From positions 188,001 to 252,000 of IMG/VR virus record IMGVR_UViG_3300012582_000005: DNA of 64,000 bases; one strand, given 5' to 3'. The notes under the pieces are model-generated. The model was not told the origin of the DNA. It saw only the letters and a program-made list of their open reading frames with translations, and ran no database searches. Source of the stretch: a virus. This document shows, piece by piece, positions 53,966 to 61,993 of this stretch. Numbering within the stretch: position 1 is the first letter of the stretch; every line of letters begins with the position of its first letter. The position numbers and the translations under genes were made by a program.

Positions 53966-54040
53966 GGCGTGTTCGTCTAGAGGCTTAGGACGGTTAGCTT
54001 TTCAGCTTTCAAACGTGTGGTTCGAATCCCGCACACGCTA
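53966..54040 (+). tRNA. tRNA, probably Glu (TTC)
   Basis: Acceptor GGCGTGT/ACACGCT (first pair G-T) and D arm GTCTAGAGGCTTAGGAC as in bacterial tRNA-Glu. T-loop TTCGAAT is present. The anticodon arm reads TTAGC-TTTTCA-GCTTTC: TTC after a T, but the loop is 6 (or 8) bases and the stem has only about three good pairs. CCA is not encoded. Nearly identical in plan to the tRNA at 54236, with a weaker anticodon stem, so it may be a decaying copy. Confidence 0.75.
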
Positions 54041-54235: not shown

Positions 54236-54310
54236 GGCCCGTTCGTCTAGAGGCTTAGGACGACTACCTTTTCAGGTAGAAAACGTTAGGTTCGAATCCT
54301 GCACGGGCTA
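54236..54310 (+). tRNA. tRNA, probably Glu (TTC), second copy
   Basis: Acceptor GGCCCGT/ACGGGCT (first pair G-T), same D arm as the tRNA at 53966, anticodon arm CTACC-TTTTCA-GGTAG with a perfect 5-bp stem but a 6-base loop (8 if the inner C-G is open). T-loop TTCGAAT. CCA not encoded. Confidence 0.8.
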
Positions 54311-54759: not shown

Positions 54760-54826
54760 AAAATAATTCCTAAAAGAAAGAACAAAAGAAAGATATATAC
54801 GTTATAATATTTAAATAACTAAGACA

Positions 54827-54922
54827 ATGACAACAATTATCAGAAATATGAATAATAATATTAATCGCACGAGAACAACTCTTGGGCTTTCTGATAAAGT
54901 ATTGTCTTTTATGAAAAGATAA
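54827..54922 (+). CDS. Leader peptide with Thr codons (attenuator 1)
   Basis: 31 residues; the N-terminal part is MTTIIRNMNNNINRTRTT and the rest is LGLSDKVLSFMKR. Five Thr codons: ACA ACA at positions 2-3, then ACG-AGA-ACA-ACT at 15-18. Those last codons lie directly before the strand that can pair with the terminator. A strong terminator follows 27 bases after the stop, then tRNA-Thr and threonyl-tRNA synthetase. The match between leader residues and downstream genes is why I call it a leader peptide. The LG...FMK end resembles the N-termini at 59787 and 60896. Confidence 0.65.
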   Translation: MTTIIRNMNNNINRTRTTLGLSDKVLSFMKR

Positions 54923-54976
54923 TTAATTAAAAAACTTTATAATAGAAAGCCCGAAGCGATAAACTTCGGGTTTTTT
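54881..54976 (+). promoter_or_regulatory. Transcription attenuator 1 (antiterminator/terminator) before tRNA-Thr and ThrRS
   Basis: Three segments compete. GGGCTTTC (54884-54891, inside the leader frame) can pair with GAAAGCCC (54945-54952), an 8-bp antiterminator. Alternatively CCCGAAG (54950-54956) pairs with CTTCGGG (54964-54970), followed by T6, giving an intrinsic terminator. The two hairpins share bases 54950-54952 and cannot coexist easily. tRNA-Thr begins ten bases after the T-run. Unlike attenuator 2, the leader stop lies about 30 bases past the first segment, so the exact ribosome-position logic is less clear. Confidence 0.7.
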
Positions 54977-54985
54977 GTTTTATAT

Positions 54986-55056
54986 GCCTTTTTAGTTCAG
55001 TGGTAGAACACATCTTTGGTATGGATGTAACACGGATCCGATTTCCGTAGAAGGCT
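54986..55056 (+). tRNA. tRNA-Thr (GGT)
   Basis: Acceptor GCCTT/AAGGC; D arm with TTCAGTGGTAGAA; anticodon stem CATCT/GGATG around loop TTGGTAT, anticodon GGT. T arm is divergent (CGGATCCGATTTCCG). The gene lies between the attenuator terminator and the ThrRS start codon, which follows two bases later, so tRNA and synthetase share one transcript. Confidence 0.82.
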
Positions 55057-55057
55057 C

Positions 55058-56218
55058 ATGGAAGATCATAGAATAATAGGTAGAAAGATGAATTTATTTC
55101 ACTTTCAAGAAGAAAGTCAAGGCTCTGTGTTTTGGCATCATAACGGATATGTCTTGTATAGATTAATTGAGAATTACATAAGAGAGAAAATATCGGAGCA
55201 AGATTATATTGAAGTAAAAAGTCCACAATTGGTTGATAAGAAATTATGGGAGAAGAGTGGACATTGGAGTAAGTTTAAAGAAAATATGTTTATCGTAAAG
55301 GATGAAGATAAAGAATTAGCAATTAAACCAATGAATTGTCCCTGTCATATAGAAATATTTAAACAAGGAATAGTTTCTTATAAAGAATTACCAATTAGAA
55401 TGAGTGAATTTGGTTCTTGTCATAGAAATGAAAATTCAGGATCATTAAACGGATTATTCAGATTGCGTTCTTTTGTACAAGATGATGCTCATATATTCTG
55501 TATGAAAGAACAAATAGTTGAAGAAGCTGAGAAGTTTTGTAAATTATTAATTGATGTGTATAGTGAATTTGGATTTAAAGAAGTTGAAGTAAAGCTTAGT
55601 GATAGACCAGAAAAAAGAATAGGTAGTGATGAATTGTGGGATTTAGCTGAGAGTAGTTTAAAAGAAGCTTCTAAGAATTTGAAGTGGGAATTGAATAAAG
55701 GTGAAGGTGCATTTTATGGTCCTAAATTAGAATTCATTCTCAAAGATAGTTTAGGTAGAGAATGGCAGTGTGGAACTTTGCAATTGGATTTCAATCTTCC
55801 TGTTAGGCTAGATGCATTCTATGTAAACCAAGAAGGTGAAAAAGAAAATCCTGTAATGATACATAGAGCAATCTTAGGTTCTATGGAAAGATTTATAGGA
55901 ATACTACTTGAGAATAGTGATGGTTGGTTACCATTTTGGTTAGCACCTGAACAAATTGTAATAGCAGGAATAAGTAATGAACAAGATGAATATTGTAAAG
56001 AAATATATGATATTCTTAAAAAGAAATATAGAGTTAAATTAGATATAAGATCAGAAAAAATAAATTCTAAAATTGCTGAATTATATGAAAGAAAAGCTCA
56101 ATATTTAATTGTAATAGGAAAAAGAGAAGTAAATGAAAATAAAGTATCAATTAAAAATTTGAAAGATAATTCACAAATTAGTATTGATAAAAAAGATTTG
56201 ATTGAATTTAAATTTTAA
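55058..56218 (+). CDS. thrS: Threonyl-tRNA synthetase, minimal form
   Basis: 386 residues against about 640 in bacteria. It begins exactly at the class II catalytic domain ([19 protein letters not shown]), so the TGS and editing domains are absent. Motif 1 region [20 protein letters not shown]. Zinc ligands C94 (MNCPCH), H145 (QDDAHIF) and H269 (VMIHR). Motif 2 [19 protein letters not shown]; motif 3 [11 protein letters not shown]. An anticodon-binding domain fills 290-386. It charges tRNA-Thr; without editing it may misload Ser. It is controlled by the Thr-leader attenuator upstream. Confidence 0.95.
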
Positions 56219-56224
56219 TTATAA

Positions 56225-56311
56225 GGGAGGGTTGCTTTAGAGACCGAAAAGTCCAGACTGTTAATCTGGTGAATTAATATTCCATCGTGGGTTTGAATCC
56301 CACCCCTCCCT
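56225..56311 (+). tRNA. tRNA with Asn anticodon (GTT) and a long variable arm
   Basis: Acceptor GGGAGGG/CCCTCCC, anticodon arm CCAGA-CTGTTAA-TCTGG, T arm GTGGG-TTTGAAT-CCCAC, all perfectly paired. The variable region is 17 bases and contains GAAT-TAAT-ATTC, a class II arm normally seen only in Leu, Ser and Tyr tRNAs. D loop lacks the usual GG. Seven bases after the ThrRS stop codon. Confidence 0.85.
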
Positions 56312-56317
56312 CAAAAT

Positions 56318-56404
56318 GCCTGTATCGCATAGATGGCCGATTGCACCTGATTTGTAACCAGGATGGTGATAAACCACACGGGAGTTCGAATCTCTCTACA
56401 GGCT
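56318..56404 (+). tRNA. tRNA with Thr anticodon (TGT) and a long variable arm
   Basis: Acceptor GCCTGTA/TACAGGC, anticodon arm CCTG...CAGG with loop centre TTTGTAA (TGT), T arm GGGAG-TTCGAAT-CTCTC. The 17-base variable region forms TGGT-GATAA-ACCA, again class II. A Tyr reading (GTA) is possible only by shifting the loop and losing stem pairs. It would read ACA/ACG codons, complementing tRNA-Thr(GGT). Confidence 0.83.
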
Positions 56405-56410
56405 CAAACT

Positions 56411-56449
56411 TTTTCTAAATATTTCATATAAATGAAAATGTTTAGAAAA
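56411..56449 (+). repeat. Inverted repeat over the HNH gene start
   Basis: TTTTCTAAATATTTCAT pairs with ATGAAAATGTTTAGAAAA, about 16 bp around a 4-base loop, ending on the A of the ATG at 56449. It could hide the ribosome entry site in long transcripts from upstream, as known for some T4 homing endonuclease mRNAs. Confidence 0.65.
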
Positions 56450-56982
56450 TGAAAAGTTGTAAAAAATGTAATAATTACTATCCTAGTAGAATAAAAATAG
56501 ATGGTAAAGTAAGAAATCTTAAAAATAGATCATATTGTTTAGATTGTTCACCATTTAATAAACATAATACTAAACAGCTTGATGTTTATATTAAAAATGA
56601 TGTTTGTAAAGAATGTAATAATTCTTTAACGTTAGGTAGATGTCATGCTTGTTATAATAGAAAAAGAAGACAAAAAATGTCTAAAAAAGTTTATGATATT
56701 ATAGGTTATAATTGTTGGATGTGTGGATATACAAAAGGTGAAATATCAAGTAAAATTTTAACATTTCATCATATAAATCCACAAGATAAAAAAATGAATT
56801 TAACTATTGATAATATGGCGAGATATGAGTGGTGTGTTGTATGGAATGAAATTAAAAAGTGTGTATCATTATGTCCTACTTGCCATCAAGAATATCATTA
56901 TACTAATTTAGTTACTGATGAAGATATTGAAAGGATTAAAAATGAAAATTGGAATAGAATACATGATGAAATAAAATTGTAA
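56449..56982 (+). CDS. HNH homing endonuclease-like protein
   Basis: 177 residues. Several zinc pairs (KSCKKCNNYY, YCLDCSPF, VCKECNNS, CHACYNRKRR) precede an HNH core: CWMCGYTKGE, ILTFHHINPQDKKMN, CPTCHQEYHYTN. Basic middle RKRRQKMSKK for DNA contact. It is inserted within the tRNA cluster, and its stop codon lies inside the acceptor sequence of the following tRNA. Probably a mobile nuclease. Confidence 0.82.
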   Translation: MKSCKKCNNYYPSRIKIDGKVRNLKNRSYCLDCSPFNKHNTKQLDVYIKNDVCKECNNSLTLGRCHACYNRKRRQKMSKKVYDIIGYNCWMCGYTKGEISSKILTFHHINPQDKKMNLTIDNMARYEWCVVWNEIKKCVSLCPTCHQEYHYTNLVTDEDIERIKNENWNRIHDEIKL

Positions 56983-57120
56983 GGTGATGAAAAGGTAGAC
57001 ATATCTCCCTGTCTCGGAGATGGTGATAATGGGATAAACGCAGAATATTTGGATTGACCACAATTAATTATCTGTTCTGTAGCTAACTACACCGTGTTGG
57101 TTCGAATCCAACTCTTACAG
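56978..57120 (+). tRNA. tRNA-Asp (GTC) with about 70 extra bases in the variable region
   Basis: Acceptor TGTAAGG (56978-56984) pairs with TCTTACA (57113-57119), discriminator G as in tRNA-Asp. Anticodon stem TCTCC/GGAGA with loop CTGTCTC (anticodon GTC, unusual T37). T arm GTTGG-TTCGAAT-CCAAC perfect. Between anticodon and T arms lie 75 bases instead of about 5. They include TGGT...ACCA and a hairpin TGTAG-CTAA-CTACA. Either a giant variable arm, an intron-like insert, or a tRNA-like RNA with another job. Confidence 0.7.
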
Positions 57121-57166
57121 CATGGATTCTTAGATAAGATTGATGATATATTAAATGATTAAAAAT

Positions 57167-57239
57167 ACCTTCTTCGTCTAACGGATTAAGACTTCTGAAT
57201 ACGAATCAGAGAATAGGGGTTCGATTCCCTTAGAAGGTT
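57167..57239 (+). tRNA. tRNA-Arg (ACG)
   Basis: Acceptor ACCTTCT/AGAAGGT, anticodon arm TCTGA-ATACGAA-TCAGA, anticodon ACG (inosine-modified in bacteria, reads CGU/CGC/CGA). T-loop TTCGATT. CCA not encoded. Confidence 0.9.
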
Positions 57240-57303
57240 CAAAAAGTAAAATAATAAAACAATATATAAGTTATATCGTTTAAAGAATAAGACAAATAAT
57301 ATT

Positions 57304-57363
57304 ATGAAAACTATAGCAATGATTATTAGAATGAGAATTATTAGACCAAAAATGCTTGGGTGA
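57304..57363 (+). CDS. Leader peptide with three AGA (Arg) codons (attenuator 2)
   Basis: 19 residues: MKTIAMIIRMRIIRPKMLG. Arg codons 9, 11 and 14 are all AGA, the codon read by the tRNA-Arg(TCT) encoded just downstream. The last codons CTT GGG form the antiterminator strand and the stop TGA follows immediately, so a ribosome that finishes the peptide masks that strand. The DNA around the end (CTTGGG...TGATA...TATTGTCTTTTA) is related to leader 1. Confidence 0.72.
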   Translation: MKTIAMIIRMRIIRPKMLG

Positions 57364-57421
57364 TAGAATATTGTCTTTTAAAAAGAAATTCGAACCCAAG
57401 CAAATAAAGCTTGGGTTTTTT
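57354..57421 (+). promoter_or_regulatory. Transcription attenuator 2 (antiterminator/terminator) before tRNA-Arg(TCT)
   Basis: GCTTGGGT occurs twice (57354-57361 and 57409-57416) and each copy can pair with ACCCAAGC (57394-57401). The second pairing is a terminator with a 7-base loop followed by T6; the first is an antiterminator. A ribosome stalled on the AGA codons leaves the first copy free, favouring read-through; a ribosome at the stop codon covers it, favouring termination. This is the layout of classical amino-acid attenuation. tRNA-Arg(TCT) starts eight bases after the T-run. Confidence 0.78.
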
Positions 57422-57429
57422 GTTTATAT

Positions 57430-57502
57430 GCCCGATTGGTGTAATTGAATAGCACAATCTCCTTCTAAGTGATTAGTCCAAGTTTGAATCTTGGATTGGG
57501 TA
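57430..57502 (+). tRNA. tRNA-Arg (TCT)
   Basis: Acceptor GCCCGAT/ATTGGGT with two G-T pairs, anticodon stem ATCTC/GTGAT (one mismatch) and loop CTTCTAA, anticodon TCT reading AGA/AGG. T arm CCAAG-TTTGAAT-CTTGG. Discriminator A. It lies directly behind attenuator 2. Confidence 0.87.
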
Positions 57503-57510
57503 CATGAGTA

Positions 57511-57687
57511 ATGAAAAAAAATATAGTGGAAAGATTAAAAAGAATATTTACACATTTAGAGATAGTAATAGAAGAACATTATTTTAATGATGATGATTAT
57601 GCTCCACCGATTAATGTTGATTGGTATTATGTAATTGAAGAATTAAAAAAGAATGGATTGGAAATAAGAAATAGTAAAAATAAATAG
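57511..57687 (+). CDS. Small acidic protein, unknown (58 residues)
   Basis: Starts MKKNIVERLKRIFTHLEIVI and includes YAPPINVDWYYVIEELKK. An overlapping 27-residue frame starts at 57504 but looks less protein-like. Its TAG stop overlaps the first bases of the next tRNA. No recognised family. Confidence 0.5.
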   Translation: MKKNIVERLKRIFTHLEIVIEEHYFNDDDYAPPINVDWYYVIEELKKNGLEIRNSKNK

Positions 57688-57757
57688 TCTCGTAATTCAG
57701 TGGTAGAATGCTTCTCTGATAAGGAAGATGTCGTGTGTTCAATTCACACCGAGACTA
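57686..57757 (+). tRNA. tRNA-Ile (GAT)
   Basis: Acceptor AGTCTCG/CGAGACT perfect, anticodon arm CTTCT-CTGATAA-GGAAG, anticodon GAT. T arm GTGTG-TTCAATT-CACAC. Discriminator A. CCA not encoded. Confidence 0.92.
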
Positions 57758-57762
57758 CTAAT

Positions 57763-57836
57763 AGCAATATAGTGTAATTGGCTAACACGCTGCTCTCATA
57801 AGGCAGAGATTATTGGTTCAAGTCCAATTATTGCTA
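57763..57836 (+). tRNA. tRNA with CAT anticodon (Met or Ile2), second copy
   Basis: Acceptor AGCAATA/TATTGCT, anticodon arm CTGCT-CTCATAA-GGCAG with CAT, T arm ATTGG-TTCAAGT-CCAAT. Distinct from the CAT tRNA at 54044, so one may be Met and the other the lysidine-type Ile2. Confidence 0.9.
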
Positions 57837-57851
57837 CAGAAGAAATAGATT

Positions 57852-59033
57852 ATGAAAATTAGCATAAATGATATTAATATAATTCCTAAACAGTTCGGAA
57901 GCGGATTATGTGTTTACGGAAAACCAAAACATGAAATACAGGAGTGGATAAATTTTTGGGGATTTAAAACCGAAGAAAGCAAAGGTTTTACAAATATTTG
58001 CCTACCTTCTAATTTAGAAGATTTTTTTATTTCCACTCCGTATTTTAAATATTTAGATGGCTACAGCCCAAATTTAAATAAATATTGCCATATTGGACAT
58101 CTCTCGAATCTTGTTATAGCTAAAGCTATTCAAAACTTTGGGTATGCTGAACAAACTATCGCTATACTTGGTGATACGTTAGATGGTAAAGTGGAGAAGC
58201 AAGATGCATTCGATAAATATTTATCATATTGTAAAGAATTTAATTATAATGTAGGTGATATTTATTATGCATCAAATCAAGAGTTAGATAATAAAGAATT
58301 ATTACATGATGGTGAAGGTGATTATATTGGAACTAAAATATTTAATGTAGGTGAGAATAAAATAGTTGGAATTAAATCAACAGGTGCTACAACATATTTT
58401 TATCAAGATGTTGCATTAGCATCTAAATTAAATGCTCCGACTATTTACATTACAGGATTAGAACAAGCACCACACTTTTCTATACTTAAAGAAATATTTC
58501 CTGACATAAAGCATATCGGTTTGGGATTAGTACTTGCTAAAAGTAAAGATTCATTTGGTAAAATGAGTTCAAGTCTTGGTAATGTTATATGGATGCAAGA
58601 TGTTATTGATATGCTTATGAAAGAATTTAATAACTTAGAATTAGTTTATAATGTTATTGCTGGTCAATTTTTGAAGTATGCACCTGGTTCGGATAAGAAG
58701 ATTGATTTAGATCAATTTGCTAATGTGAAAACAAGTTATGGTTTATATGTTAGTTATACTTTAGCTAAATTAAAAAGTGCTGGTATGAAAGTGGAATTGA
58801 AAGATGATTTTAATAGTTTCCATATGAAGTTTAAATTTTTAAAAGCGAAAGATAATTTTTCACCTGCTATATTTTTTGATGAATTGATTGATTCGTGTAA
58901 AACTATTAATCAGATGTATTTGAAATTTCATATCAAGGATAATCCTGAGAACCAAGAGATGTATAAACCATTAATGGAGGATTTAGAATTAGGTTTGAAG
59001 AAATTAGGAATGTTTTCTATTGATAAGGTTTAA
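57852..59033 (+). CDS. argS: Arginyl-tRNA synthetase, compact form
   Basis: 393 residues against about 550-590 in bacteria. Class I signature in the ArgRS form: YSPNLNKYCHIGHLSN (HIGH at 80-83) and GKMSSSLGN (KMSSS at 237-241). Between them TYFYQDVALASKL and YITGLEQAPHF match the ArgRS catalytic core. The C-terminal helices (YGLYVSYTLAKLKSAG onward) correspond to a shortened DALR anticodon domain; the N-terminal Add1 domain is reduced. It is preceded by tRNA-Arg(TCT), tRNA-Ile and tRNA-Met behind the Arg-leader attenuator. This suggests coordinated supply of Arg-tRNA for AGA codons, which dominate in this AT-rich genome. Confidence 0.88.
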   Translation: MKISINDINIIPKQFGSGLCVYGKPKHEIQEWINFWGFKTEESKGFTNICLPSNLEDFFISTPYFKYLDGYSPNLNKYCHIGHLSNLVIAKAIQNFGYAEQTIAILGDTLDGKVEKQDAFDKYLSYCKEFNYNVGDIYYASNQELDNKELLHDGEGDYIGTKIFNVGENKIVGIKSTGATTYFYQDVALASKLNAPTIYITGLEQAPHFSILKEIFPDIKHIGLGLVLAKSKDSFGKMSSSLGNVIWMQDVIDMLMKEFNNLELVYNVIAGQFLKYAPGSDKKIDLDQFANVKTSYGLYVSYTLAKLKSAGMKVELKDDFNSFHMKFKFLKAKDNFSPAIFFDELIDSCKTINQMYLKFHIKDNPENQEMYKPLMEDLELGLKKLGMFSIDKV

Positions 59034-59059: not shown

Positions 59060-59722
59060 ATGAAAAATATTAAAAAATTTATAGATTTTATTAATGAAAG
59101 TCTTCGTATAGATAATACTGATAAAAATATATTTTTTTTAAAAGAAGTAGTTAAAAAATGCGGATTTGAACAAACATATCATTTTTTCTTAAAAGAGCCA
59201 TTAAAAATTGGAACATGTCAATATGGAGATTTTTATCTTAATTATTATGATGTTAATGAATATGATGGTAATTTAGCATTTTGGATTATATTTAATCAAC
59301 ATGAAGATAATCTATATGGTAAATCGTGGGATTCTTCTGTTATTTGGGTGGAAGATGGTATATTACAATATTCAGATAAAATTGAAGAATCAGATTTTAA
59401 ACTTGATGATAATTTTATTGCTAAAATTGTACAAACAATAAAATCATATAATTATTTAGATAAATGGTGTGAATTTATAAAAGAAATTGGTATTAAAGGT
59501 AGGAAATATCATAGAATGGCGATACATAATAAAGAATTTACATGGGAGCAACAAATTGATTGGATTAAAAATAAAATAGAAATTAATAAATTATTAAATA
59601 GATACACAGAACCTTACGAACAAAGGACTTTAGATAAAATGATAGATTTAGGTGAAACTGCATATAAAGAGAAAGCAAAGAAAGATAATGATATTATGAT
59701 GAAAATATTAAAGGGTATGTAA
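59060..59722 (+). CDS. Unknown protein with capsid-targeting-like N-terminus
   Basis: 220 residues. MKNIKKFIDFINESLRID ends its first segment in INE-S, fitting the gp21 cleavage pattern. The rest is acidic and aromatic (FWIIFNQHEDNLYGKSW, KLDDNFIAKIVQTIKS) with a Lys-rich end. No recognised enzyme motif. A TATATAC element lies about 25 bases upstream of the start. Confidence 0.62.
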   Translation: MKNIKKFIDFINESLRIDNTDKNIFFLKEVVKKCGFEQTYHFFLKEPLKIGTCQYGDFYLNYYDVNEYDGNLAFWIIFNQHEDNLYGKSWDSSVIWVEDGILQYSDKIEESDFKLDDNFIAKIVQTIKSYNYLDKWCEFIKEIGIKGRKYHRMAIHNKEFTWEQQIDWIKNKIEINKLLNRYTEPYEQRTLDKMIDLGETAYKEKAKKDNDIMMKILKGM

Positions 59723-59786: not shown

Positions 59787-59981
59787 ATGGATAAAAACAC
59801 TTTAGGATTTGGAAGTAAGACATACGATTTTTTAAAACGCTATTATGAGTCAAATGGACAGAGTATTTGCAATATTAAAATTAGTGGTTCTATAAGGATA
59901 AAATCTATTAGTAAAAATAATTTATCAGTTGGTTTAAAAAGAAAATTGATAATAGAAGAATTAACAGAAGAAATAAATTAA
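59787..59981 (+). CDS. Small protein sharing a TLG...FLK N-terminus
   Basis: 64 residues. MDKNTLGFGSKTYDFLKRYY resembles the start of the M42 peptidase at 60896 (TLGLRQESFDFLKQY) and the end of leader peptide 1 (TLGLSDKVLSFMKR). The remainder is basic (GSIRIKSISKNNLSVGLKRK). Function unknown. Overlaps the convergent next gene by four bases. Confidence 0.6.
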   Translation: MDKNTLGFGSKTYDFLKRYYESNGQSICNIKISGSIRIKSISKNNLSVGLKRKLIIEELTEEIN

Positions 59982-60402: not shown

Positions 60403-60801
60403 TTACAGTGGTGGTAATCCTAAATTTGGATTATTTGATGCAATTATTTTTCCTTTGAAGTGTGATAAATGATAAGATTTTGGTAAATGAACTTCGTTAT
60501 CGTGATAATTTGGACCAACTTCAGATTTATTCACAACTTCTACATTAAATACATTATTATAAGAATCCATATCACCATTTAAATTTGCTGTTGGATATGT
60601 TTTATCCGTAGTTATTTTAATTATAAGCGGATAATATATACCGTTAATAGAACTATTGGAAGATGCTGGTAAATAAGCATAATCACCCGCTTTAACTTTT
60701 TCATTAAAATTAACTAAATAATTATATCCATCTGCATGTATTATTTTATTTGATTTTTTACTTTCATTTAGAAAATCATTAAACTTTTTAATAAAAGACA
60801 T
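60403..60801 (-). CDS. Unknown protein with capsid-targeting-like N-terminus
   Basis: 132 residues. MSFIKKFNDFLNESKKS is one of the clearest targeting-type peptides, ending in LNE-S. The rest is beta-rich with Asn/Tyr/Pro (DYAYLPASSNSSINGIYYP) and ends LPPL. No family recognised. Twenty-six bases upstream of the GNAT-like gene on the same strand. Confidence 0.62.
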   Translation of the reverse strand: MSFIKKFNDFLNESKKSNKIIHADGYNYLVNFNEKVKAGDYAYLPASSNSSINGIYYPLIIKITTDKTYPTANLNGDMDSYNNVFNVEVVNKSEVGPNYHDNEVHLPKSYHLSHFKGKIIASNNPNLGLPPL

Positions 60802-60895: not shown

Positions 60896-61993
60896 ATGGA
60901 TAAAGCAAAAAGCACGTTGGGATTAAGGCAGGAAAGCTTTGATTTTTTGAAACAGTATTTAAACAACTTCTCGCCTGTTGGGTATGAATCGAGTGGTCAA
61001 CAAATTTGGATGGATTATTTAAAGCCATACGTTAATGAATTTAAAACTGATGCTTATGGTACTGCTGTAGGTATTATTAATCCTGATGCGCCTTATAAGG
61101 TAGTTATTGAGGCTCATGCTGATGAAATTTCATGGAGAGTTAGTTACATTAGCGAGAAAGGTTATCTTTACGTTAAAAAGAATGGTGGTTCTGATTGTAC
61201 TATTGCACCATCTAAGAGAGTGAAAATTTTCACTGAAGAGGGTGATGTTGTAGATGGATTTTTTGGCTGGCCAGCAGTTCACGTAAGAACAGGTGATGAT
61301 AAACCACCTAAGATTGAAAACCTTACTATTGATATTGGTGCTTCATCTAAAAAAGAAGCAGAAGAAATGGGTATCCATATTGGTGCGGTTGTAGTATTCG
61401 ATGAATACATGCAAATTCTTAATGATAAGTTCCTTACAGGTAGAGCTTTGGATAACAGAATTGGTGGTTTCATGATTGCTGAGGTTGCGAGAATGTTGCA
61501 TGAGTCAGGAAATAAACTTCCATTTGGACTTTATATTGTAAATTCTGTTCAGGAAGAAGTTGGTTTGCGTGGTGCTGAAATGATTTCAAGAGCCATTAAG
61601 CCTAATGTTGCTATCGTTACTGATGTTACACATGATACACAATCACCGATGTATAATAAAATTGCTAGTGGTGATTTAGCGTGTGGATTGGGTCCAGTTT
61701 TGAAATACGCACCTGCTGTTCAGAACAATTTGAGAAAACTTATTATTGATACTGCGAGAGCTAATGAAATTCCTTTCCAAAGAGCCGTTGGAGAACGTGC
61801 TACAGGTACGGATACAGATTCATTTGCATACTCAGGTGAAGGTGTTCCATCAGCCCTTATATCGCTTCCATTGAAGTATATGCATACTACAGTTGAAACT
61901 GTTCATAAGGATGATATTCATGCAGTGATTAATCTTATTTACAAATCCATTTTAAATATACAGGATGAGCAAGATTTTAGATATATTAAGTAA
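60896..61993 (+). CDS. M42 family aminopeptidase (glutamyl aminopeptidase/endoglucanase-like)
   Basis: 365 residues, full length for M42. Metal ligands and catalytic residues in order: H74 and D76 in VIEAHADEISW, D186 in GRALDNRIGG, E220/E221 in SVQEEVGLRGA, D243 in IVTDVTHDT and a C-terminal His in KYMHTTVETVH. A dinuclear zinc or cobalt exopeptidase that would form a dodecameric shell. It is rarely seen in phages. The sequence is close to cellular Bacteroidetes enzymes by eye (APYKVVIEAHADEISW), with slightly richer GC codons, suggesting acquisition from a host. Confidence 0.9.
   Translation: MDKAKSTLGLRQESFDFLKQYLNNFSPVGYESSGQQIWMDYLKPYVNEFKTDAYGTAVGIINPDAPYKVVIEAHADEISWRVSYISEKGYLYVKKNGGSDCTIAPSKRVKIFTEEGDVVDGFFGWPAVHVRTGDDKPPKIENLTIDIGASSKKEAEEMGIHIGAVVVFDEYMQILNDKFLTGRALDNRIGGFMIAEVARMLHESGNKLPFGLYIVNSVQEEVGLRGAEMISRAIKPNVAIVTDVTHDTQSPMYNKIASGDLACGLGPVLKYAPAVQNNLRKLIIDTARANEIPFQRAVGERATGTDTDSFAYSGEGVPSALISLPLKYMHTTVETVHKDDIHAVINLIYKSILNIQDEQDFRYIK

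Follow-up and report, generated by a model that had tools for sequence, protein, structure and literature searches.

A putative multi-amino-acid leader attenuator before a tRNA and synthetase operon of a huge phage, with counterparts in Mahaphage relatives

Genes and leader units of the tRNA locus

The window, by which we mean the whole 64,000-nucleotide stretch of viral DNA analyzed here, is part of LR756504.1 (636,363 bp), which it matches at 100% on the minus strand and whose record reads 'uncultured phage' and carries no annotation. By tail-sheath similarity, the kin of this genome are LR756502, LR745206, LR756501/3, LR756500, and the Lak phages, and sequence comparison suggests that it is a Mahaphage relative with Bacteroidetes as the predicted host. 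Mahaphage is the clade holding the largest huge-phage genomes, also with Bacteroidetes as predicted hosts, and as many as 67 tRNAs and 15 synthetases have been counted in huge phages (PMC7162821).

Two leader units precede tRNA genes at this locus (Table 1). In the Arg unit, an intrinsic terminator (hairpin plus T6, 57392-57421) lies between the leader ORF and the first gene, and 9 bases separate T6 from the start of tRNA-Arg(UCU). The three AGA codons that a first-pass annotation reported ahead of this tRNA are present (57328, 57334, and 57343), as are two copies of GCTTGGGT that can each pair with the same ACCCAAGC, one pairing giving an antiterminator and the other a T6 terminator. The leader stop codon, described there as directly following copy 1, does adjoin it, but the TGA (57361-57363) actually overlaps copy 1 by one base. 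The CAU-anticodon tRNA of the cluster, called as tRNA-Met, could be an Ile2 tRNA.

Table 1. Coordinates of leaders, pairing arms, tRNA genes, and synthetase genes in the two units of the window.
Feature	Position	Strand	Basis
Thr-unit leader ORF (MTTIIRNMNNNINRTRTTLGLSDKVLSFMKR then stop; Thr/Asn/Arg, also Ile/Met)	54827-54922	+	composition P=2e-4
Thr-unit antiterminator 5' arm (GGGCTTTCT region)	54882-54900	+	duplex z -5.1
Thr-unit terminator hairpin and U-tract	54941-54979	+	-19.1 kcal/mol
tRNA-Thr(GGU)	54986-55057	+	ARAGORN
ThrRS	55058-56218	+	TIGR00418 1.4e-142
tRNA-Asn(GUU)	56225-56312	+	ARAGORN, Rfam
tRNA-Thr(UGU)	56318-56405	+	ARAGORN, Rfam
tRNA-Arg(ACG), last of Thr/Asn/Arg section	57167-57240	+	ARAGORN, Rfam
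Arg leader ORF (MKTIAMIIRMRIIRPKMLG then stop)	57304-57363	+	19 codons; sequence
Copy 1 (GCTTGGGT), antiterminator 5' arm	57354-57361	+	sequence; folds; duplex z -5.8
Arm 2 (ACCCAAGC), common to antiterminator and terminator	57394-57401	+	sequence; folds
Arm 3, second GCTTGGGT (57409-57416) and T6 (57416-57421), terminator 3' arm/U-tract	57409-57421	+	
tRNA-Arg(UCU), first controlled gene	57430-57503	+	ARAGORN; Rfam RF00005 50.8 bits
tRNA-Ile(GAU)	57686-57758	+	ARAGORN, Rfam
CAU-anticodon tRNA, called tRNA-Met	57763-57837	+	ARAGORN, Rfam
Divergent class I aaRS, 393 aa, HIGH and KMSSS	57852-59033	+	TIGR00456 E=1.2e-7

The ORF of the synthetase begins at 57852, some 350 bases past tRNA-Arg(UCU), as the first-pass annotation had it. 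Its proposed identity as ArgRS stands insofar as argS is the best-matching family, but the protein is very divergent and falls far under the TIGR00456 cut-off (30.5 vs 261.65 bits). It is best read as an ArgRS from weak but consistent profile matches. First, argS is the top family for 6/6 of its homologs. Second, its profile matches ArgRS chains in the HIGH region. Third, the HIGH and KMSSS motifs occupy conserved positions and give the protein a class I signature. Fold matches of an AlphaFold model of low confidence (pLDDT 54) were mostly to GluRS, with one to ArgRS, and would support assignment to class I only.

The Thr unit lies 2.4 kb upstream of the Arg leader, and the main residues of its leader (Thr, Asn, and Arg) are the amino acids of the tRNAs and ThrRS in its section. 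Rfam leader families scored below threshold at this unit (Thr_leader RF00506, 28.6 vs 55 bits; His_leader RF00514, 23.7 vs 49 bits).

Several further elements surround these units. The end of the Thr leader (54887-54919, TTLGLSDKVLSFMKR) resembles the N-termini encoded at 59787-59850 and 60896-60960 (MDKNTLGFGSKTYDFLKRYY and MDKAKSTLGLRQESFDFLKQYL). The N-termini encoded at 59060-59722 (+) and 60403-60801 (-), such as MKNIKKFIDFINES and MSFIKKFNDFLNES, appear to resemble the T4-type capsid-targeting start. An ORF inside the tRNA operon (56449-56982) encodes several CxxC and HH motifs, has no Pfam hit at E<=0.001, and looks like an HNH-type homing endonuclease insertion. At about 57020-57125 there is a tRNA-like tail half (GTGTTGGTTCGAATCCAACTCTTACAGC) that no tool called and that may derive from a decayed or split tRNA gene. 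Finally, tRNA-Glu-like genes at 53966-54040 and 54236-54310, with more copies in L003, L026, and L029, carry either the anticodon stem-loop CTACC-TTTTCA-GGTAG, whose loop has 6 bases, or a variant; they score low in Rfam (32-36 bits), and ARAGORN could assign them no anticodon. They may be tRNAs with changed loops, which have been proposed to evade anticodon nucleases, or else decoys.

Alternative pairings and codon content of the Arg leader

Folds of the Arg unit were computed with ribosome-covered RNA left out. The duplex between copy 1 and arm 2 has an energy of -16.4 kcal/mol, whereas shuffled sequences average -6.3 (z -5.8). A ribosome placed at the stop codon allows the terminator to form (-15.8 kcal/mol). 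If it is stalled instead at the second AGA codon, the entire segment folds best as the antiterminator (-17.7 kcal/mol), and arm 3 can no longer pair with arm 2. In the ribosome-free fold the antiterminator forms first, and the Arg device is therefore open unless its leader is translated to the end. A search for a separate pause or protector hairpin (strand 1:2) in that fold revealed only a weak hairpin within the leader ORF. The exact 8-base three-strand motif with its T tail is present a single time in the part of the 636 kb genome that was examined, against zero times in five Markov-random genomes. A scan for exact 7-mer three-strand matches caught the Arg unit, missed the Thr unit, and was dropped as too strict.

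The core of the Arg leader peptide reads MIIRMRIIR and matches the tRNA-Arg, tRNA-Ile, tRNA-Met, and ArgRS genes downstream. According to the first-pass annotation, the leader senses Arg alone through one codon, a reading that its three AGA codons followed by tRNA-Arg(UCU) favor and in which the Ile and Met codons would be incidental. We consider this very unlikely. First, the leader spells the Met, Ile, and Arg of the entire downstream cluster, and these three amino acids make up 11/18 of the post-start residues, compared with 14.5% in phage proteins (P=7e-6). Second, in a non-redundant set of 31 leaders described below, nearly all downstream amino acids are covered and not the first alone. 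Third, the phage uses AGA for Arg by default. The AGA share to which the annotation drew attention is indeed high (81% of Arg codons in LR756504), so that three AGA codons are unremarkable once Arg is given and the codon adds little beyond the amino acid; three or more AGA codons are nonetheless found in 0.5% of the LR756504 ORFs of 15-25 residues, fewer than a chance origin would suggest. Exact matching of codon to anticodon in non-redundant data was not significant for Arg (p=0.07) or Ile (p=0.30) and is only suggestive. Where homologous leaders exist, they do not lack Arg codons.

Control of tRNA and synthetase genes also brings to mind T-boxes, which control synthetase genes, or another RNA switch that senses tRNA without translation. 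In Firmicutes, T-box riboswitches increase synthetase expression in response to uncharged cognate tRNA, whereas sensing in the phage would go through translation of an ORF. No T-box or aminoacyl-tRNA riboswitch match was found at Rfam gathering or lax thresholds, at which no Rfam leader family matched the Arg unit either, and such a switch would leave the composition of the leader ORF unexplained; we give it almost no weight.

Very probably, then, the Arg unit is a ribosome-mediated transcription attenuator of a phage tRNA/synthetase operon that senses all amino acids of the operon together. The layout and the mutually exclusive pairing, like the leader-operon match and the recurrence documented below, come from sequence and computation, and the leader-peptide attenuation layout proposed at first pass is strongly supported by the folds, the duplex z-scores, and the leader-operon match. 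We infer that the leader is translated, that it responds to shortage, and that the phage benefits. In the proposed switch, RNA polymerase would transcribe the short leader and a host ribosome would translate it. With ample charged Met, Ile, and Arg tRNAs, the ribosome would reach the stop codon and cover copy 1, arm 2 would pair with arm 3, and transcription would end short of the tRNA genes. Scarcity of any one of the listed amino acids or tRNAs would stall the ribosome upstream, copy 1 would pair with arm 2, no terminator would form, and the tRNAs and synthetase would be made. The same device, each time with its own amino-acid list, recurs ahead of most Mahaphage tRNA clusters and several synthetase genes.

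Recurrence, serial arrangement, and leader-operon match in related phages

We scanned five related huge phages and Lak, taking in the regions upstream of tRNA clusters, terminators genome-wide, and synthetase genes. Putative leader attenuators stand ahead of the majority of the tRNA clusters in these phages and of several synthetase genes. The Thr unit, which the first-pass annotation had paired with the Arg unit as independent support, is strongly supported and is joined by about 40 further cases across LR756504 and its relatives. In LR756504, a Glu/Ala/Ile/Val/Gly unit has a leader beginning MKTVNTNIAIVEIAVIGGAEEG, a His/Phe unit contains FWHFHF, and a Leu/Ser/Cys unit contains LSLCLSLSLSL. 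Synthetase genes of LR745206 have leaders containing TIIIIR (IleRS, with IIII), VVVNVSV (ValRS, with VVV), ILLLPLT (LeuRS, with LLL), and INNRNR (AsnRS plus ArgRS, with NNRNR); a poly-Gln leader, MTTTQQIQQQQINQTD, precedes tRNA-Gln/GlnRS, and AspRS also has an attenuator unit. A tRNA-Lys/LysRS leader contains KKKK. Clusters in LR745206 comprise up to 19 tRNA genes, with a leader that includes every amino acid of the cluster, and the LR756500 leader TLSTYPLGQAQTLGTPPITG includes 7/7 of Ala, Leu, Pro, Tyr, Gln, Gly, and Thr. Attenuators are present in Lak-A1 and Lak-C1 too. Coverage is lower in the more distant members (LR756500 and Lak): attenuators cover 31/38 tRNAs in LR756504, 12/26 in LR756500, and 6/29 in Lak-C1. 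The leader of HisRS contains a single His codon, and no attenuator was found for MetRS of LR756504. Likewise, none was found before six stand-alone ArgRS homologs (49-53% identity) in IMG/VR relatives, which rules out a leader for every ArgRS homolog; control therefore belongs to tRNA clusters and some synthetase operons and not to argS in itself.

The pairing logic of the Arg unit recurs as well. In 34/34 curated units, a ribosome that has reached the stop codon permits the terminator to form; when it is in mid-leader, an antiterminator of 9-22 bp exists before arm 3 does. Duplexes between copy 1 and arm 2 are stronger than in dinucleotide shuffles (Fisher X2 280, 68 df), with weak antiterminators (z about -1.2 to -1.7) in, for example, the LeuRS, Gln, and W03 Arg units. 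Among orthologous leaders, the three strands (copy 1, arm 2, and arm 3) vary in concert, and the peptides keep their composition and not their order (for example, THKNFSKSHKWF, SKHSKHFSSSSKWF, and SHKNFSKSSKWF), which argues against a nascent-peptide signal that needs order.

Multiple tests bear on the match between leaders and operons. First, in curated units, downstream amino acids account for 0.38 of leader residues in LR756504 (n=8) and 0.35 in LR745206 (n=13), compared with 0.15 and 0.13 upon permutation (p=5e-5 in each case, the floor of the test). By itself, the W04 set gave p=0.04 (n=4), and W05 plus W06 gave no significant match (n=3). The curated table was picked by eye, and we therefore fixed an automatic rule and let the automatic tests carry the weight. 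This rule took terminators of <= -8, duplexes of <= -9, tRNAs within 4.5 kb, and, as the leader, the longest ATG-initiated ORF that has 8-45 codons and terminates at copy 1. Second, the rule, set beforehand, was run on previously unseen IMG/VR relatives, which single-protein scans with ArgRS, ThrRS, or IleRS had not found and which were obtained instead by alignment of tail sheath proteins. It returned 17 units with a recall of downstream amino acids of 0.983, compared with 0.655 upon permutation (p=5e-5); some are orthologous to LR745206 units, so these represent new genomes and not 17 fully independent inventions. Third, applied to everything with similar leaders dropped, the rule gave a recall of 0.972 compared with 0.629 (n=31, p=2e-5). 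Finally, the scan found zero units in T4 (8 tRNAs) and PAU (6 tRNAs) and two in the scanned pieces of Sinorhizobium phage Phosso (64 tRNA calls), neither matching the downstream amino acids.

The genome-wide terminator scan of the huge phages contained 450 plain terminators, 62 of them with some short ORF close by and a duplex that could form, as might be expected if the short ORFs were non-regulatory, the hairpins ordinary end-of-gene terminators, and the repeats a product of chance. The permutation tests, duplex z-scores, and negative controls make this highly improbable, as does the position of the terminators, most of which lie about 5-20 bases ahead of tRNA genes.

Some attenuators are arranged in series. 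In LR756504 (L026), three successive attenuators precede Asp, then Tyr,Tyr,Gln, and then Lys,Lys,Lys,LysRS,Lys genes; the first leader lists D,Q,Y,K, the second Q,Y,K, and the third K alone. Similarly, Pro,Asp and Gln sections of LR745206 and LR756502 have leaders listing P,D,Q and then Q. Over eight serial steps, the upstream leaders hold 45 residues of amino acids used only downstream (about 27 expected), and the next leaders hold 8 residues of amino acids used only upstream (18.6 expected); these expectations derive from background composition, and the counts are therefore support and not proof. The pattern is absent from a Glu/Tyr step. The general tendency is for an upstream leader to list the amino acids of the sections after its own as well. 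Internal leaders lie directly behind a tRNA gene and have none of the promoter-like motifs of first leaders, which together with the serial lists fits a single transcript running through several gates. As to these motifs, ATATATACGTTATAATAA is common to first leaders of LR756504, about 30-40 bases upstream (for example, at 54795-54810 of the window), and TATATTTG, which resembles the Bacteroidetes promoter box, occurs ahead of LR745206 leaders.

One unit of the same layout precedes a different kind of gene. Upstream of an EF-G gene of LR756504 (L012:15765-17891, minus strand; TIGR00484, 8e-290) there is a leader plus terminator, and the leader, MKTVLKFIIKTIIVSRYDRVYID, has no amino-acid bias; it is perhaps a general sensor of translation speed. 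All of the leaders might, by extension, sense translation in general (initiation rate, ribosome supply, slowdown, or host shut-off) and not particular amino acids, with copy 1 left free in the absence of a ribosome and the operon on by default. Such a role agrees with an antiterminator that forms without a ribosome, with the lack of an evident separate protector hairpin, and with enrichment of rare codons (for example, CGC, TCG, CCG, and GGC) in the leaders of LR756504 and LR745206, both at listed amino acids (35 observed, 13.4 expected) and elsewhere (37 vs 20.9). It gives no reason for the correspondence between the amino acids of a leader and the genes that come after it, and we judge it very unlikely.

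Known attenuators and implications for phage tRNAs

Attenuators of bacterial synthetase operons include those of pheST in gamma-proteobacteria and of trpS and leuS in Streptomyces (PMC1262725). Like the bacterial trp, his, thr, ilv, and pheST attenuators, the phage units combine a short ORF rich in cognate codons with mutually exclusive antiterminator and terminator structures, and the stop codon is sited so that a finishing ribosome favors the terminator. Unlike these attenuators, the Mahaphage units are viral, act on tRNA arrays, have leaders that each list up to seven or more amino acids, form chains whose lists shrink downstream, number in the dozens across one viral clade, and use a three-strand layout with no evident separate protector hairpin. 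Multivalent attenuators of the ilvGMEDA type also sense several amino acids in one leader, the products of one pathway; the phage list instead follows the downstream tRNA and synthetase genes. We found no report of attenuation of a phage tRNA operon in the openly licensed PMC literature. Attenuation of tRNA genes is not mentioned in PMC7162821, PMC11555353, or PMC10264068, and 'attenuat' and 'leader' are absent from the first of these. Bacterial operons already provide the mechanism; what appears to be new is its viral use, its application to tRNA arrays, leaders that list an operon, and its repeated and serial deployment.

The tRNA arrays of T4, T5, and huge phages, together with phage synthetases, have been linked to translation support or to evasion of tRNA-cleaving defenses (PMC7162821; PMC11555353; PMC10264068), and phage tRNAs protect phages against tRNA-cleaving systems (PMC11555353; PMC10264068). 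This protection makes a link to defense attractive, as tRNA cleavage would stall leaders; for the attenuators, the link is only a hypothesis. Tentatively, and with more doubt than conviction, we suggest that Mahaphages may operate a genome-wide codon-sensing network of tRNA supply, in which each tRNA/synthetase section would be guarded by a leader naming its own amino acids and those of everything later on the transcript, any shortage, including tRNA cleavage by host defense nucleases, would open exactly the sections that are needed, and phage tRNAs would be an inducible counter-defense and not a constitutive codon supplement.

The purpose of phage tRNAs has been debated for decades, as codon compensation or as evasion of tRNA-cleaving defense, mostly from gene content. 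The leaders would offer a readable record of the supply that the phage monitors, for each tRNA it can make. They would explain how tRNA clusters are grouped, with an ORF of 20-40 codons predicting the tRNAs that follow, and reporters can address why phages carry tRNAs and when these are used. Leader-peptide attenuation would thereby reach viruses and tRNA arrays and take on a serial logic of several amino acids.
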